64,000 nt of DNA from Planctomycetaceae bacterium (GTDB taxonomy: Bacteria > Planctomycetota > Planctomycetia > Planctomycetales > Planctomycetaceae): the NCBI GenBank assembly GCA_019636285.1, contig JAHBXV010000026.1, positions 1-64,000 on the forward strand, given 5' to 3'. Both the position numbers and the translations under genes were made by a program. Position 1 is the first letter of the stretch, and each line of letters opens with the position of its first letter. Under the pieces are notes generated by a model. That model saw only the letters and a list, made by a program, of their open reading frames with translations. It searched no databases and had not been told where the DNA came from. Below, piece after piece: positions 32,161-44,331 of the stretch.

Positions 32161-35100
32161 ATGCAAGCCGCCCGGCGTCTCGGATGGACCACAAGCCTCT
32201 GCCTCGGAATCGGGCTGTGCAGCGCGACCACTCAGGCGGCAGAGCCCGTCCCCATTCGCGCCCCCGAGGGCTTTGTCGTCGAAGAGTTCGCGGGCGACGA
32301 CCTGGCACACGACATCTACGCGATGACCGTCGACACCTTGGGCCGTCCGGTGGTCAGCGGTCGCGGCTACGTCAAGATTCTGGTCGATGATGACAAAGAC
32401 GGACGAGCCGACCGCGCGATCCCGTTCGCCGACGGCCCCGCGACCGGCGCGCAGGGTCTGTTCTTCCACGGCCGGGCGCTCCTGTGCGTGGGCGATGCCG
32501 GTCTCCTTCGCTACCGCGACGACAACGCCGACGACCGAGCCGATGGCCCTGCCGATGTCTTCCTGCGGTTCAAAACCGGCGGCGAGCACGACACGCACAC
32601 GATCCAGCAGGGGCCGGACGGCTGGTGGTATGTTCTCGGCGGCAATACGGCTGAGATCAGTGAGACGTATAACACGCTCCCCACCGCGCCGGTCAAATAT
32701 CCACGGTATGGAGCGCTCGCGCGCTTCCGGCCCGACCTGACCGCTGGCGAGATCGTCGCGGATGGGATGCGGAACGCCTATGACTTCACCTTCAACGAAG
32801 CGGGCGACCTGTTCACGTTCGATAGCGACGACGAGCGAGAAATTTCGCTCCCCTGGTATCAGCCGACGCGCGTCTTCCACATGCTCATCGGCTCCGATCA
32901 TGGCTGGATCAGCCGAAGCTGGAAACGCCCCGCCGGGTTTCTGGATCTGCCCCCCGTGGTGGCCGATTTGGGACGCGGTTCGCCGACGGGAGTCATCTGC
33001 TATCGGCACACGCAGTTCCCCGAAAAATACCGCGGCGCGATCTTCGCGTTGGATTGGACCTATGGCCGCGTGTTCGCTTTGCCATTAACCCCTTCCGGAG
33101 CGACCTGGAAGACAGAACCCGAGGTCTTTCTGACCAGTTCCGGCGACCAGGGATTCGCACCGACCGATGTTGAAGTGGGGGCGGACGGCAGCCTGTTCGT
33201 TTGCGTGGGCGGCCGCGGCACGCGCGGCGGCGTCTATCGCATTCGTGCCATTGACGGTGCGAAAACGGACAAGCCGACAGATGCCCCCCAGGACACGCTC
33301 ACGAAATGCCTCACCGCGCCTCAACCGCTGTCGGCGTGGAGTCGGCACGCCTGGCGCCCACTCGCCCGCGAGATTGGAGCCGATGGTTTCCGCAACGCCG
33401 CCCTCGAGACCGCGCGACCCACCAGCCAGCGCGTCCGGGCGATCGAAATTCTGACCGAGTTTTATGGCGGGCTCTCGGAATCTGACCTGCGAACTCTCCA
33501 GGCCGATCCCGCCCCCCTGATTCGTGCCCGGGCCATCTGGTCGCACGGACGGTCGAACCCAGCCAAAACCAATCTGGAACTGGTCAATATGTACCTGCTG
33601 GATCGCGAGCCCCGCGTGGTGATGGCGGGCCTCGAAGCAATCACCGGGCTCTCGGGAACAACGCCCTGCGGCCCGATCGTCCCTGGCCTGGCCAAGGCAC
33701 TGGGCAGCAGTGATCCCGCGGTCCGCAATCTGGCAGCGGCAGCCGTGACACGAATCGATGCCGCCAGTCTGCAACCGTTGTCCGACGCCACGAGCAAACT
33801 GGGAGCCCGCGCGGTCACCACATATGCCGCCGGCTGGCTCATGCGGGCAGCCGATGATGACTCGCGGATCAAGGGTTCAATTCCGCCGCTGGCCCTCGCG
33901 CTGGTTGCCGGAAAGTATCCGCTCGATATCCGTCTCGATGCGGTTCGCCTGTTGCAATGGGTTCTGGGAGACATGGGCCCGTCCGAAGGAGTGCCGCCCG
34001 CGTTCGATGGATATACCGGAGCCGTCGATCTCGCCGCTTTCGATCGCGAACTCGATTTGCCGCGCATTCGCCTCGCGGAGATCTATCCGACGGGTGACGC
34101 ATCGCTGGATCGCGAAATCGCGCGGCTGCTCGCGATGCTGCAACCGCCCAACGCGTCGCTGCTGGACAAAGTCCTGGCGTTCATCACTCCCGAAAGCGAG
34201 CCGCTGGACGATATTCATCACCTGATTGTCGTCGCCCGCATTCCCGTGCCCCGCAGTTCGAAGCAGACAGCCATCATCGCGGCCGGCCTGACGGGCCTGG
34301 AAGGAAAACTCGCCGCCCGGAAGATGGTGCAGGACTCGGGCTGGAACGACCGCATGAAGGAAATCTACGCGGCCCTCGCGAAGCACGACCCCATGCTGGC
34401 CGTGGAGATTGTCGGTCAGCCGACATTCGGACAGGCCGGCCATGTCATGTTCCTGAGCGAACTTCCTGGCGAGCACCTGGACGCCGCGATCGCAGCATTC
34501 GCGAAAGCGGCCGCTGACGAAGACTACGTCTGGACAAATGACGTCGTTTTCGTAGTTGGCGAATCCGAAAACCCCGACCACATGCAGCTGCTCCGCGACC
34601 AATACGAGAATTTCGCCGTTCGCGGCGCGGTCCTGATGACACTCAGCGCCGATCCGGAAGAGTCAGATCGCGCGTGGTACGTCGAGGGGCTGGAATCGTC
34701 CCAGGCCGAAGTGCTGGGTGCCTGCCTTGGAGCACTCGAGGAACTGCAACCGGCCAGTACTCCCGAAGAATTCGGCCGACTGCTGATCACGTTTCGTCGA
34801 CTTGGCCAGGATGAAACGGAGTTCAAATCCCGCGAGCGCGTGAACGCCCTCCTGGAGCGGGCTGCCGGACAGAAAAGCCGCTTCATCGCGGGTGAAGCGG
34901 GCCATCGACCGCAGCCCGAGGTCATCGCCCAATGGACGGCCTTATTACGTCAGAAGTGGCCGAAGGAGGCGGACACCGTTCTCGGCGAGAATTCGGACGA
35001 GTTGCAGAAGCTCGCCTCGCGCCTGCCGAAGATCGACTGGACAACCGGAGACGTGGTTCGCGGCAAAGCCGTCTTCCAGAAGCGGCAATGCGCGAACTGC

Positions 35101-35487
35101 CACGGCGGCCGCAGCGCGTTGGGGCCCGACCTCGCTGGTGTCGCCGGGCGATTCTCGCGTCCCGACTTGTTCACGGCGATTGTCGCCCCCAGCCGCGATG
35201 TGTCGGCCCGCTATCAGACCACGATCCTGGAAACGCATGCCGGGAAGGTCTATTCCGGCCTCATCGTGTACGAATCGGTCGATGGCCTCCTGTTGCGGAA
35301 TGCCACCAATCAGACCTTCCGGATCGAGGGGCGGGAAATCGCCTCGAAACGGAAGTCGCCGGTCTCCATCATGCCGACCGGACTGCTGAAGGACCTGTCG
35401 GACAGCGACCTGGCTGACCTGGATGCCTATCTCCGATCCCTGACGGCGACCATCGCCGTTCGCCCAGAGGCGAGTCCATCGGAATAA
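32161..35487 (+). CDS. PVC-type propeller/HEAT/cytochrome c protein
   Basis: A 1,108-residue exported protein of the multi-domain class common in planctomycetes and verrucomicrobia. After a signal (LCLGIGLCSATTQAAE) comes a beta-propeller of the membrane-bound-dehydrogenase type (TIGR02604, about 35-375: APEGFVVEEFAGDDL.. GLLRYRDDN.. GMRNAYDFTFNEAGDLFTFDSDDE), then helical HEAT-like repeats (about 380-930), then a PVC heme-binding cytochrome domain (TIGR02603, about 955-1095) with CANCH (977-981). Likely a periplasmic oxidoreductase, perhaps for polysaccharide use; the substrate is unknown. Confidence 0.92.
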   Translation: MQAARRLGWTTSLCLGIGLCSATTQAAEPVPIRAPEGFVVEEFAGDDLAHDIYAMTVDTLGRPVVSGRGYVKILVDDDKDGRADRAIPFADGPATGAQGLFFHGRALLCVGDAGLLRYRDDNADDRADGPADVFLRFKTGGEHDTHTIQQGPDGWWYVLGGNTAEISETYNTLPTAPVKYPRYGALARFRPDLTAGEIVADGMRNAYDFTFNEAGDLFTFDSDDEREISLPWYQPTRVFHMLIGSDHGWISRSWKRPAGFLDLPPVVADLGRGSPTGVICYRHTQFPEKYRGAIFALDWTYGRVFALPLTPSGATWKTEPEVFLTSSGDQGFAPTDVEVGADGSLFVCVGGRGTRGGVYRIRAIDGAKTDKPTDAPQDTLTKCLTAPQPLSAWSRHAWRPLAREIGADGFRNAALETARPTSQRVRAIEILTEFYGGLSESDLRTLQADPAPLIRARAIWSHGRSNPAKTNLELVNMYLLDREPRVVMAGLEAITGLSGTTPCGPIVPGLAKALGSSDPAVRNLAAAAVTRIDAASLQPLSDATSKLGARAVTTYAAGWLMRAADDDSRIKGSIPPLALALVAGKYPLDIRLDAVRLLQWVLGDMGPSEGVPPAFDGYTGAVDLAAFDRELDLPRIRLAEIYPTGDASLDREIARLLAMLQPPNASLLDKVLAFITPESEPLDDIHHLIVVARIPVPRSSKQTAIIAAGLTGLEGKLAARKMVQDSGWNDRMKEIYAALAKHDPMLAVEIVGQPTFGQAGHVMFLSELPGEHLDAAIAAFAKAAADEDYVWTNDVVFVVGESENPDHMQLLRDQYENFAVRGAVLMTLSADPEESDRAWYVEGLESSQAEVLGACLGALEELQPASTPEEFGRLLITFRRLGQDETEFKSRERVNALLERAAGQKSRFIAGEAGHRPQPEVIAQWTALLRQKWPKEADTVLGENSDELQKLASRLPKIDWTTGDVVRGKAVFQKRQCANCHGGRSALGPDLAGVAGRFSRPDLFTAIVAPSRDVSARYQTTILETHAGKVYSGLIVYESVDGLLLRNATNQTFRIEGREIASKRKSPVSIMPTGLLKDLSDSDLADLDAYLRSLTATIAVRPEASPSE

Positions 35488-36532: not shown

Positions 36533-36586
36533 CAATTGGCCGCATCCGGGTTCCGTTGTCATCTGTGTCTTCGATGTTTTCGAGGT

Positions 36587-37519
36587 GTGACGTTGTCGCC
36601 GCAACTGTTGTTCGCAGCCGCCGAATCCGGTGCCAGTCTTCAGTGGGGCCTGGTCATCGCGGTCGGTTTGGGATTCCTGGGTGCCTTATTGGCCCATGCC
36701 TACCTGACCAAATCGGGAATCATCGCGCGGGCGACGACGAAGGAAGCGATTCGCCAGCCGGTCTTTCTGCTCGCGATGACCATCGCGATGGTCTTGCTGC
36801 TTGTGAACACGGTCCTGCCGTTCTTCTCCCTGGGAGAAGACGTCAAGATGCTCAAGGACTGCGGCTTGGCGACGATTCTCATTTCGTCGCTGTTGATCGC
36901 GATCTGGACGGCCAGCACCAGCGTGGCCGACGAAATCGAGGGGAAGACGGCGATGACGCTCCTCTCGAAACCCATCAATCGCCGGCAGTTCGTGGTGGGC
37001 AAGTACCTGGGAATCGTGCAGGCGGTCCTCATCTACATGCTGCCGCTGGCGCTGCTGTTCCTGGCGCTCATCTATTACAAAGTGGGATACGACGCCAAGG
37101 AAGGTTCTCAGGAAGCACCGTCGCACGCCGAGCGCTGGGCGATCATGATCCAGGTCGTTCCCGGTCTCGCGCTGATCTTCCTGGAAGTCATCGTTCTTGC
37201 CGCCATCAGCGTGGCGATTTCCACGCGGCTGCCGATGGTCGTGAACCTGACGGCGTCGTTCGCGATCTTCGTGATCGGCCACCTGACTCCGGTCCTGGTC
37301 CAGGCGGGGGTGGTCAAAATCGAGTTTGTCGAGTTCATGGCGCGGCTCATCGCGACGATTCTGCCGACGCTGGAACTGCTCAACATTTCCGCGGCGGTGG
37401 CCACCGAAAGCGCGGTGCCTCCGGTTTACGTGGCTTTTTCGGCCCTGTACTGCCTGGCCTATTGCGTCGCGGCAATTCTGCTGGCTTTCATCCTGTTTGA
37501 GGATCGAGACCTCGCGTAA
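36587..37519 (+). CDS. ABC-2-type transporter permease
   Basis: The product (310 residues from a GTG at 36587) is an all-helical permease of the ABC-2 type: [46 protein letters not shown], then the conserved [28 protein letters not shown] stretch common to NosY-like permeases, and four further spans. It should pair with a separate ATPase subunit, but none is adjacent. The frame is open to 36536 from a TTG; the GTG start better fits the alignment. Confidence 0.85.
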
Positions 37520-37697
37520 GATGGAGAGGTAGAATTCGCCGCAGGTCTACCCGCCGTCGATGACGGCTGGCCGTGCCCGGAACGGAGTCAGCACTCGCCA
37601 CGCCTAAGGAACGTTGGGCGATCCGCCGACGAAGTCTTCCCCCGTCTCATGGGTCGGGGTTCGTCGTCCGGTTTTCACCCAGCGCGAGGCGTTTCTG

Positions 37698-39734
37698 GTG
37701 AGCGAACAACACTCCCGATCGTTCCAGCGGATTTTCGCTCGTCGCGACCTGTTCGCCGGCCCGGCCCGCACCGGATTGTTGTGGTCGGTTCTCGCCGCGC
37801 TGCTGCTGGTCGGCCTGTTGCTGGTGACGGGACTTCTCGTCGGGTTGTTGACAGATCAGGGTCGACTTTCGGCAATTCTCACGGAGGATCAGGCTCCGCG
37901 ATTCGAGCGGCTGACTGGCCAGTCCCTCAATTGGGAAGCCGCACGGGAAGCCGTCAAACCCCCCGAGCTTCCCCCCGGCGCGGCAGCCCCTCCGCCCGAC
38001 AATCGTCCACCAACCCAACTTGTCGTTGTCGACGATAGCGGCATCATTCCCTCAGTCTGGCGGCTGCGCGATCGCCCCTGGGGTCGGGCATTGGAGTGGA
38101 TTGTCCTCCGGACTCCCCCGCTCCGAAGCAATGTTTCCGCGCTGATGGTCCTCCTTCCCGCCCTCGCCCTCCTGGCAGTGGCCCGACTGTTCGCGCTGTC
38201 GCGGGTCAACCTGCAGGCGCGGCGGGCGGCTCTGGAGGCAGCCCAGCGGTTACAGAAAAGCATCCATCGTCAGGCACTGCGGCTTGGGCCGGAAGATCTG
38301 AATGGTGAAACCGTCGCGATCGCCCAGCGGATGTTTTCCGTCGAGGCCCGCGCGATTAGCGGAATACTGCATGAACGATTGAGACGACAGCTCCGCGACC
38401 CCATCGAACTGATCGCCGTGATCATCGTCGCGCTCGCGGCCGATCCCCTGCTGACACTGCAATGGTTATTGCCGCTCGCTCTGGCTTTCTATTTGTGGCA
38501 TCGCGGACGGGCTCGCTTCGCGCAGACCCGACAATTGGCCGATGACCGAATCCGCGGCGAGTTCGAGCAGCTCGGGAGTTGGCTGAATAACAGCCGCCTG
38601 GTTCGCGGCTACGCCATGGAAGCTAACGAACACGACGCGTTCGACAACCAGTTGCGGCACTTCTACCAGACCGTCCGCCAGAAGACGCGGCTCATGGACG
38701 TTCCCCTCTGGTATGGCTGGCTGGGTGCGTTCGCCGTCGGGGCGGCTGGCGTGTTTCTCATGCTGCTTCTGGGTACGAAAGTCCTCAGCCCCGCGGTGGA
38801 ACTTTCGTTTCCGGGGGCCGTCGTCTTCCTGGCAACCGTTCCGATTGGCCTGGAGGCTGCGCGGCGGCTGGTCGAGTTGCCTCGGTTGAACTCCGAGCTC
38901 TCGGTCGCGGCCAACCAGGTCTATCGATTTCTCGACGCGATGCCGACCGTCAGTCAGGCGGTTGGTGCCCGGTTCCTGAATCCCCTCTCGCGCGCGCTGC
39001 ACTTCGAGGGGGTGACCTATCATAGCCCCGCGCGAAAAATCCTGCTCGATCATGTCGATCTGAAGCTCGATGCCGGAAAGACCTACGCGGTCGTCAGCCT
39101 CAATCCCGAAGAGGCGAAGGCGTTCCTGCTCCTCCTCCCGCGCTTTCTCGAGCCGCGAAGCGGCCGAATTCTGTTCGACGGGGAAGACATCGCGTGGGTC
39201 ACCCTCGAATCGCTGCGCGCGGAGACCGTTTACGTCGGTGCCGATGATCCACCGTTTATCGGATCGGTCGTGCAGAACATTCGGGCCGGGGGCGAATTCC
39301 CCCTCAGCAAGGTCATCGACGCGGCCAAAGCCGTGCATGCTCACAACTTCATCTCGCAGCTTCCACAGGGATACGAAACCACGCTGCTGCACGGAGACGA
39401 CACGCTCAACGTCGGCCAGCGGTTTCGCCTGGGCCTGGCGCGGGCTTTATTGCGAGAACCGGCACTCATGGTCATCGAAGAACCCTCGCGGGCGCTCGAT
39501 GAAGACACGAAGAACTACCTGGCCGATACCTATGAACGGCTGATCCCCGGGCGAACCATCTTCTTCAAGCCGACTCGCATGAGCACCCTGCGGCGGGCCG
39601 ACGCGGTCATCATGCTGCACCAGGGACGAGTGATCGCCGTGGGTCCGCAGGCCAGGCTGCTTTCGGAAGTCCCGCTGTACCGTCATTGGGAATACATGCA
39701 CTTCAACGAATTTCGGCACGCCAGCGAAAACTGA
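37698..39734 (+). CDS. ABC exporter-like protein with degenerate nucleotide-binding domain
   Basis: The product (678 residues from a GTG at 37698, GAGG upstream) has six or so membrane spans, with a large periplasmic Pro-rich insert between the first two, then an exporter-type NBD. Motifs have decayed: Walker A is VSLNPEEAKAF (467-476) with no GxGKS/T; the Q-loop glutamine is Ala515; the signature is LNVGQ (570-574); the Walker B Asp is Glu594 though the following Glu595 stays; the H-loop histidine is Thr626 (FKPTRMST). The fold around them (SGRILFDGEDI, RALD, LRRADAVIMLHQGRV) is intact. This points to loss of ATP hydrolysis with retained structure, not to random decay. Confidence 0.85.
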   Translation: MSEQHSRSFQRIFARRDLFAGPARTGLLWSVLAALLLVGLLLVTGLLVGLLTDQGRLSAILTEDQAPRFERLTGQSLNWEAAREAVKPPELPPGAAAPPPDNRPPTQLVVVDDSGIIPSVWRLRDRPWGRALEWIVLRTPPLRSNVSALMVLLPALALLAVARLFALSRVNLQARRAALEAAQRLQKSIHRQALRLGPEDLNGETVAIAQRMFSVEARAISGILHERLRRQLRDPIELIAVIIVALAADPLLTLQWLLPLALAFYLWHRGRARFAQTRQLADDRIRGEFEQLGSWLNNSRLVRGYAMEANEHDAFDNQLRHFYQTVRQKTRLMDVPLWYGWLGAFAVGAAGVFLMLLLGTKVLSPAVELSFPGAVVFLATVPIGLEAARRLVELPRLNSELSVAANQVYRFLDAMPTVSQAVGARFLNPLSRALHFEGVTYHSPARKILLDHVDLKLDAGKTYAVVSLNPEEAKAFLLLLPRFLEPRSGRILFDGEDIAWVTLESLRAETVYVGADDPPFIGSVVQNIRAGGEFPLSKVIDAAKAVHAHNFISQLPQGYETTLLHGDDTLNVGQRFRLGLARALLREPALMVIEEPSRALDEDTKNYLADTYERLIPGRTIFFKPTRMSTLRRADAVIMLHQGRVIAVGPQARLLSEVPLYRHWEYMHFNEFRHASEN

Positions 39735-42801: not shown

Positions 42802-44331
42802 TCAATTGGCGGCCACGCGTTCGGGAACCGAGTCGCCCAGGACCGTGAATCCACGACGTAACACTTCCTTGCGACGATTGCGGACGACGACGGCATATTT
42901 TCCGGGAGCCATGTCGGGAGATAGATACTGACTGAAGTTCGCGCGGAACTGTTCGCGCGTCGCCACCTGACCATACGACCTGACCAGACGATTGTCCTCA
43001 TCCACGATTTCGCACTCGATCCACATGTCTTCATGCGGCTGCACCAGCGTGCATTGGGCAATCAGGTTCTGACCGGGACGGAACGTCGTGCGGCGATCGA
43101 CGATCAGCCCGCCCAGCGTCGTCGTCCCAAGGTCGATGGCGAAGAACTTGTCCTCGACGCGGAGTGAGGGCGAGGCCGTCATCATCATCTCGACACGAGC
43201 CGGATCCATCGGCGTCAGGGCGTATGGTCCTTGGGGGCGACGCAGACCATACGGATCGATCCAGTGCTCCAGTTCGATCGATGCACCGACCAGGACAACC
43301 GCCGCGATTCCCCAGACCCAACCGCTGGCCGCCGCGAAACCGGGGCGCGGCTGCCATCCCGAGAACGAGGGCAACGCCCGGGTGATCGACGCGAACATCG
43401 CCCGATGACGGCGGCTCAGCTTTCGCCAGCGCTGCGACAGCCAGGCAAAGTCCTGGTCATCGAAGAACGCAAGGTAGCTGGTGAACATCACGGCCGGGAA
43501 GAGAATCAGCCCGAGCGTGAACAGTGTTCCCACGTGAAAGGCGGCGCCGATCGGCAGCATGAAGTTCCGGAACGACGACTTCCAGGCCGCGAAGGGAAAG
43601 ACGGCTTCCCAGATGAGAGTGATGTAGCCCAGCGCGAAGAGAACCGCCGGATACTGGGAGAACCACTCGCCGGCGGGGTGTTCGAAGTTGATATGCGTCA
43701 ACGTCCAGAAGACAAGCTGGTCGCCGCTCAGAAACGCGGGCGTATTCATCTTCGTGACGGCGGCCCCGAAGTAAACCAGGGCAATGTGAAGTTGAATCAG
43801 CCGGCGCGGCCAGGCGGAAAACTTCTGGTAGACAACCGGCGACTCGCCCGGCCAGTTCGTACGTCGTCGGCCCTTGATCCAGGCATCCACCGACCACAGG
43901 CTGCCGCACGGCGAGACTGCCAGCAGAAGCAGCATGTGGCACGTGATGACCGTGAATTTGGCGAGCGAGGTCGCGCTGTCGAGCATCGAGAAATAGGTCA
44001 GCAGGACGCATGACAGAAACAGCGAGACGCGCGTCATCCAGCCGATCGCGCTGGTGACGAACGCCACCAGCATCAGCGTGAACAGGCCCACCACCACCGG
44101 CCCCGAAAACTCGGGAACGAAGTTCAGATAGCCGTAGCCATCCGCCAGCGGCGACGGCGCGCCATCGAGCGAGTACAACTCGCGACACCACCGCCAGCGC
44201 GGCAGGTACATCGTCAGCATGAAGACCGGCAACAGAATGCGTATGAGGGCCAGCGCGACGGGAACTTCCTCGGCAAAGAAGAACCCTTCGATCCGCTCGC
44301 GCCAGCTAGGCAGCCGTTCCATCGTCCGCAT
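42802..44331 (-). CDS. HTTM-domain membrane protein (vitamin K-dependent gamma-carboxylase-like)
   Basis: A 509-residue protein with about eight membrane spans of the HTTM (horizontally transferred transmembrane) type: VALALIRILLPVFMLTMYL, VVVGLFTLMLVAFVTSAIGW, ITCHMLLLLAVSPCGSLWSVDAW, RLIQLHIALVYFGAAVTKM, and a C-terminal soluble beta-domain (about 400-495). The domain is shared with gamma-glutamyl carboxylases, but no proof of that activity is visible. It is followed at 35 bases by the acyltransferase gene. Confidence 0.85.
   Translation of the reverse strand: MRTMERLPSWRERIEGFFFAEEVPVALALIRILLPVFMLTMYLPRWRWCRELYSLDGAPSPLADGYGYLNFVPEFSGPVVVGLFTLMLVAFVTSAIGWMTRVSLFLSCVLLTYFSMLDSATSLAKFTVITCHMLLLLAVSPCGSLWSVDAWIKGRRRTNWPGESPVVYQKFSAWPRRLIQLHIALVYFGAAVTKMNTPAFLSGDQLVFWTLTHINFEHPAGEWFSQYPAVLFALGYITLIWEAVFPFAAWKSSFRNFMLPIGAAFHVGTLFTLGLILFPAVMFTSYLAFFDDQDFAWLSQRWRKLSRRHRAMFASITRALPSFSGWQPRPGFAAASGWVWGIAAVVLVGASIELEHWIDPYGLRRPQGPYALTPMDPARVEMMMTASPSLRVEDKFFAIDLGTTTLGGLIVDRRTTFRPGQNLIAQCTLVQPHEDMWIECEIVDEDNRLVRSYGQVATREQFRANFSQYLSPDMAPGKYAVVVRNRRKEVLRRGFTVLGDSVPERVAAN

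Follow-up and report, generated by a model that had tools for sequence, protein, structure and literature searches.

We have characterized a gene from a Planctomycetaceae bacterium that encodes a half ABC exporter altered at the A-loop, Walker A, Q-loop, signature, Walker B Asp and H-loop of its nucleotide-binding domain (NBD). Relatives throughout the family share the loss and evolve under constraint, and the gene, though apparently dead as an ATPase, is very likely maintained by selection. The window (the whole stretch of DNA that was analysed, 64,000 nucleotides) carries this gene, here called the dead exporter, on the same strand as an upstream gene for an ABC-2 type permease; the features are collected in Table 1.

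Table 1. Positions in the window of the dead exporter, its altered motifs and the upstream permease
Feature	Position	Strand	Basis or remark
ATPase-dead half ABC exporter, 678 aa	37698..39734	+	GTG start; open frame
First extracellular loop with Pro-rich stretch, about 90 residues (54-144)	37857..38129	+	Alignment, model
Pseudo nucleotide-binding domain, residues 433-666	38994..39695	+	Pfam ABC_tran and structural match to 5eum_A
Former Walker A SLNPEEAKA, residues 467-475	39096..39122	+	Glycines lost, acids gained, Lys replaced by Ala473
Former Q-loop Gln, now Ala515	39240..39242	+	Alignment
Former signature LNVGQ, residues 570-574	39405..39419	+	Alignment
Walker B, Asp replaced by Glu594, catalytic Glu595 retained	39477..39482	+	Alignment
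Former H-loop His, now Thr626	39573..39575	+	Alignment
Family-specific C-terminal motif LYRHWEYMHFNEFR, residues 660-673	39675..39716	+	Conservation in alignment
ABC-2 type permease (ABC2_membrane_2), upstream of dead exporter	36536..37519	+	Pfam; start codon uncertain

ATP site and predicted fold of the window protein

The 678-aa protein, for which an alternative in-frame start (TTG at 37614) lies upstream of the GTG, passes both exporter models of Pfam, with 40.2 bits against a cut-off of 25 for ABC_tran (residues 450-597) and 29.5 bits against a cut-off of 28 for ABC_membrane. The top NCBIfam models are MsbA types, the two best giving 176 bits against a cut-off of 780 and 169 bits against a cut-off of 602, and every score among the best 25 of 113 NCBIfam matches is far under its cut-off. 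PADLOC returned a weak partial match to mad3 only, which was taken as generic ABC similarity.

The HMMER alignment to a solved exporter is gap-free across the P-loop and places AVVGGSGSGKST opposite AVVSLNPEEAKA, so that the position of the Walker A Lys is occupied by A473, with K474 one residue downstream. The sequence-only reading had listed EEAKA for Walker A, Ala515 in the Q-loop, LNVGQ as signature, Glu594 for the Walker B Asp and Thr626 for the H-loop His, and alignment confirmed each of these to the residue; it also showed that the A-loop aromatic is gone (S443) and that the D-loop Asp is present (D601). In the six other exporters aligned from the same genome, the canonical Walker A residues, the Q-loop Gln and the signature Ser are all present. 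Elsewhere in that genome, two half-exporter genes lie side by side (L007 and L005, G000:C48:69763-72806), and one of them has DD at Walker B and Asn instead of His in the H-loop, a pattern usual for heterodimers in which a single site is degenerate.

An AlphaFold model was built from an alignment (A1) of 22 sequences, including 21 of 23 planctomycete loci. It has a mean pLDDT of 82.4 and a pTM of 0.54, and comprises six long helices (the sixth broken), a first extracellular loop that is ordered in part (pLDDT 60-65 at residues 81-100) and the NBD. Foldseek searches with this model gave ABC exporters throughout among the 50 matches listed. Whole-chain comparison with exporters by VIA-align 2 gave Z of 27-29 and rmsd of 17-24 A among the matches listed, the large rmsd probably reflecting relative domain placement; residues 424-671 superimpose on 5eum_A, the NBD of a Haemophilus lipid transporter, with an rmsd of 2.7 A over 244 residues (Z 27.5). 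The intact exporter fold claimed from the letters alone is thus borne out by both Pfam domains and by the match of the model over the whole chain, and the model indicates that the type IV exporter fold is retained although the nucleotide site is gone. The Pro-rich insert, which had been singled out as a further oddity, is real, but it belongs to a part of the first extracellular loop that varies among relatives; by eye, the canonical exporters L002 and L003 of the same genome are long at this place too, so that it is not peculiar to the dead exporter.

Relatives, loss of motifs and constraint

Relatives of the dead exporter were found in 95/101 Planctomycetaceae genomes, one per genome (E <= 1e-60), and in 158/170 genomes of the order Planctomycetales, all of them Planctomycetaceae (E <= 1e-50). 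For the class Planctomycetia the count is 172/248 genomes, own family included (E <= 1e-50), which is an upper bound because the match in G260 (L116) is canonical. Schlesneria, Thalassoglobus neptunius, Planctomicrobium and Planctomycetaceae are named among the genomes of the relatives' loci. In a sample of 294 genomes from the phylum, the 11 matches outside the own family (one from Planctomycetia, ten from other classes) included no dead exporter and were all canonical, in a search from which dead members below E 1e-45 could escape.

The motifs were read in 90 of the 95 family matches (those of G016, G035, G048, G080 and G099 were left out). Of the roughly 105 class matches in other families, 39, picked by score and spread, were read as well, and four further, more diverged loci neighbouring ABC-2 genes (L236, L237, L251 and L252) were added, giving 43 class members of other families. 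An intact Walker A occurs in 0/90 and 0/43 of these, respectively, and in 18/18 canonical controls; the alignment of relatives that had been called for therefore yielded a shared loss and no dead-family member with an intact Walker A. The signature Ser-Gly(Ala/Ser)-Gly is similarly distributed (1/90, 2/43 and 17/18). Among the 90 Planctomycetaceae members, the Walker A Lys and the Q-loop Gln are retained in none, the signature Ser in 4, the Walker B Asp in 3, the H-loop His in 3 and the first signature Gly in 2, and the P-loop has a loose consensus of its own, about SLDPLEARA. The 43 members from other families have kept more: Lys in 23, Gln in 26 and His in 27 (all three together in 15/43, at least one of them in 35/43), as well as the first P-loop Gly in 27; the Walker B Asp is present in none. 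Across the dead exporters, then, the Walker B Asp, the first Gly of the signature and the remaining two glycines of the P-loop are missing almost throughout; the complete loss of Lys and Gln and the almost complete loss of His are confined to the own family. E595, the Walker B Glu, is invariant in 133/133 dead members (90/90 and 43/43) despite the loss of the remaining site; the catalytic Glu is found in 16/18 canonical controls. At K605, Lys in 83% of the dead family replaces a Glu found in 18/18 canonical controls.

We read this pattern as pointing to an ATP site that was eroded stepwise after one ancestral loss. A tentative order can be proposed, in which the P-loop glycines, the Walker B Asp and the signature may have gone first and Lys, Gln and His later. 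In a tree of 30 of the 90 Planctomycetaceae members, the 43 class members and the 18 canonical exporters, the dead exporters (73 tips) are monophyletic with a support of 0.94, a grouping on which long branches could mislead; the clade of the own family has a support of 0.38 only. The P-loop has also gained acids, on average 1.6 in the own family and 2.3 in the other class members against 0.1 in the controls, with at least one acid in 129/133 dead members versus 2/18 controls; in a phosphate-binding loop such acids would tell against ATP binding.

Selection was estimated from 18 disjoint pairs of dead exporters of >62% identity by YN00, with NG86 where YN00 failed, so that a few pairs compare the domains by different methods. 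Whole-protein dN/dS ranges from 0.036 to 0.312, with dS saturated in several pairs, and dN/dS is lower in the NBD than in the membrane domain (TMD) in 15/16 pairs with both estimates, two domain values not being estimable; the exception is L040/L043. These values indicate that purifying selection acts on both domains. Within the dead family, NBDs share a mean pairwise identity of 0.54 and TMDs one of 0.29; the corresponding values for the 18 canonical exporters, which are a more diverse set, are 0.47 and 0.23. By pairwise identity the dead NBD appears about as constrained as that of working exporters, and its greater conservation relative to the TMD is not special to the dead family; what is notable is its persistence without the ATPase motifs. 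The membrane domain evolves fast and offers no clue to the substrate. Compared with the canonical set, the dead family is more conserved at residues 478-513 (around the side of the Q-loop), 550-561 (ahead of the signature) and 658-669 (the C-terminal motif LYRHxxYxxFN), among other stretches, and less so in the former P-loop (466-477).

Where nearly all catalytic motifs have changed simultaneously, one might suspect that the gene is decaying or that its sequence is an artefact. The gene is, however, dead at the same places in 95/101 family genomes, dN/dS stays at or under 0.31 in the 18 pairs, and 85 columns are at least 80% conserved across the 133 dead members; these observations refute decay and artefact, to which we give next to no probability, and they uphold the view, already taken from the sequence alone, that the degeneracy is selected.

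Neighbouring permease, candidate partners and possible roles

The ABC-2 permease lies upstream on the same strand in 79/89 Planctomycetaceae loci and in 29/39 loci of other Planctomycetia families (84/101 in a clustering of an overlapping set that includes the window), at a median gap of about 105 bases, with few gaps >350. Where it is not adjacent (10/89 family loci), eight genomes have it on another contig or megabases away, among which a contig end in G071 leaves adjacency undecided, and G019 and G097 gave no permease match. A motif scan for intact ABC ATPases found none within the 64-kb window, and they occur in 2/101 short neighbourhoods, in 4/23 longer ones at no consistent place, and in 1/20 ABC-2 permease loci. 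A wider conserved operon was considered and rejected, as the TerC, ROK and DUF7133 genes of the window were unmatched in the 89 family loci (flanks mostly 1.5-3 kb); DUF7133 was matched once among 40 class loci.

The permease is the more widespread of the two genes, being found in 240/248 Planctomycetia genomes. Among 20 permease loci, mostly from genomes without a strong dead-exporter match, four have a diverged dead exporter directly downstream, and in the other 16/20 none was detected beside the permease, which weakens the idea of the permease as an obligate client of the dead exporter. The permease is thus the more widely kept gene; the dead exporter seems either to have been added to the permease locus or to have been lost in several lineages. 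Co-occurrence tables of dead exporter and permease (class: 170, 2, 70, 6, Fisher p 0.011; family: 91, 4, 2, 4, p 0.0002) were set aside, because at least one of the class matches counted (G260) is canonical, several family genomes lacking both genes are incomplete, the rows are kin and the permease is near-universal.

Several further features of these loci were recorded. The permease ends in F(E/Q/D)DRDLA in 16/16 translations examined, and a longer form with extra N-terminal sequence exists in several families. A gene whose motifs suggest an acylphosphatase-like product lies upstream of the ABC-2 gene in 31/101 loci (e.g., L079) and in 14/20 permease loci, and it seems to go with the permease. 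The window also encodes a protein of 1108 aa that combines DUF7133 with a cytochrome c domain at its C terminus (32161-35487, forward strand) and a membrane protein with an HTTM domain (42802-44331, reverse strand).

On balance, we lean towards a nucleotide-independent pseudo-exporter whose NBD would be a coupling or docking module, most likely accessory or regulatory for the upstream ABC-2 permease. The protein would presumably dimerize as other type IV exporters do. With their altered motifs, its NBDs would be unable to bind or hydrolyse ATP and could provide no power for transport, and would act instead in coupling and docking. Consensus charged residues of the TMD (columns 186, 195, 294, 300, 303 and 308) fall in two clusters, 186-195 and 294-308, which in the model sit near two cytosolic turns; the window protein departs from this consensus at two columns, having Gln186 and Ser294. 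As the cytosolic turns of type IV exporters contact the NBD, charged residues at these places suggest that the position of the NBD is probably still relayed to the membrane helices. The dead exporter might then serve as an accessory or regulatory pseudo-transporter of a permease whose locus rarely has an ATPase gene. The functional link to the permease, taken alone, is put forward with reserve, and it is conceivable, if rather doubtful, that ATP has been abandoned altogether and that the NBD dimer has become a protein-binding or conformation-sensing module working with an ABC-2 permease that lacks an adjacent ATPase. Several observations argue against parts of this scheme: (i) the Walker A Lys is retained by 23/43 members of other families, and Lys, Gln and His together by 15/43; (ii) the permease is more widespread, often stands without a dead exporter beside it and in eight family genomes lies elsewhere, with adjacency undecided in one; and (iii) the invariance of E595 would sit oddly with a site lacking ATP.

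The sequence-only reading had also suggested a partner in a heterodimer, and the dead exporter could in principle be the degenerate half of one, with a canonical partner encoded elsewhere hydrolysing ATP and the dead subunit locking one side. The retention of the exporter fold and the NBD would suit such a role, and exporters with one degenerate site are common, according to excerpts of a review (PMC7756269). The search for an intact partner that had been proposed found a suitable type, exemplified by the canonical half-exporter L002 (G000:C38:47227-49356), whose first extracellular loop is long, in 58/59 Planctomycetaceae genomes, but none beside the dead exporter; half-exporters of the L002 type are the best candidates for a partner. 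Two further canonical exporters were dropped as universal partners, being present in only 39/59 and 40/59 genomes (E <= 1e-90). In bacterial heterodimers with one degenerate site, the canonical half-transporter is usually encoded alongside, and the partner's site takes a working signature from the degenerate chain. The dead exporter has lost this signature as well (Ser and first Gly retained in few of the 90 family members), and would leave the ATP site of a partner incomplete, which makes a heterodimeric role less likely. The scarcity of intact ABC ATPases in the window and its counterparts tells against it too, as does G042, which carries an L002-type exporter and has no dead-exporter match. 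Moreover, the excerpted review (PMC7756269) describes the degenerate sites of several exporters as still binding ATP, whereas here Walker A is destroyed. The heterodimer, weakened on these several grounds, seems to us improbable.

Equally unlikely, in our view, is a protein that works without ATP as transporter, channel or lipid scramblase, driven by diffusion or an ion gradient, with the NBD as a mere dimer clamp. There are models for such a function: SbmA-like transporters have an exporter-like membrane domain and use protons (excerpts of PMC13316013), NBD-less LmrA has been reported as an ethidium-proton symporter (excerpts of PMC6155054), and the predicted exporter membrane fold is retained. 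The membrane domain is, however, the less conserved half of the dead exporter, its acids conserved at >=70% are limited to columns 218, 294 and 308, which the model puts toward the cytosolic ends, and family-specific conserved residues in the NBD would be odd for a clamp; for NBD-less LmrA, the excerpts also report the absence of a HEPES current (PMC6155054). A pseudo-exporter with a coupling or docking NBD remains the account that we prefer.

Comparison with known systems

Most of the degenerate ABC sites known so far are paired with a site that still uses ATP. Here, a homodimer would have both sites dead and a heterodimer would have its second site crippled, and the NBD is still constrained. 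If confirmed, this would mean that the role of the NBD in ATP hydrolysis is separable from its structural or signalling role, and the family would offer a natural series of intermediates for the order of motif loss. The findings also draw attention to the ABC-2 permease, which is present in nearly all sampled Planctomycetia genomes and, in the loci scanned, seldom has an intact ATPase alongside. Among the titles and abstract beginnings listed from an open library, we found none on the dead-exporter family or on natural exporters in which both sites are dead.

Like the type IV exporters of the MsbA/ABCB kind, the dead exporter is a half-transporter with a membrane domain fused to an NBD and an exporter fold in its model; unlike them, it has no intact ATP site and scores far under the cut-offs of the MsbA models. 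Excerpts of the review (PMC7756269) describe type I exporters with one degenerate and one canonical site, several of which hold ATP at the degenerate one. With TmrAB, TAP and the ABCC family, treated there, the dead exporter shares a site kept under selection after the loss of catalytic residues; these systems retain one working site and are described as holding ATP at the other (excerpts of PMC7756269), whereas the dead exporter has lost both Walker A and signature in one chain, and no partner gene was found alongside. Yeast Pdr5 comes close in that one of its sites is degenerate at Walker A, Walker B, signature and H-loop alike (excerpts of PMC7756269), but this full transporter also has another site, which is canonical. 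The SbmA-like peptide transporters likewise have an exporter-like membrane fold and do not use ATP (excerpts of PMC13316013); SbmA, however, has no NBD, and the dead exporter has a conserved one. SbmA-like transporters have a conserved ladder of glutamates in the membrane; the conserved acids in the membrane part of the dead exporter are the three at columns 218, 294 and 308. NBD-less LmrA (excerpts of PMC6155054), finally, is a precedent for an exporter membrane domain acting without ATP, but it is a laboratory truncation, whereas the dead exporters form a natural family.
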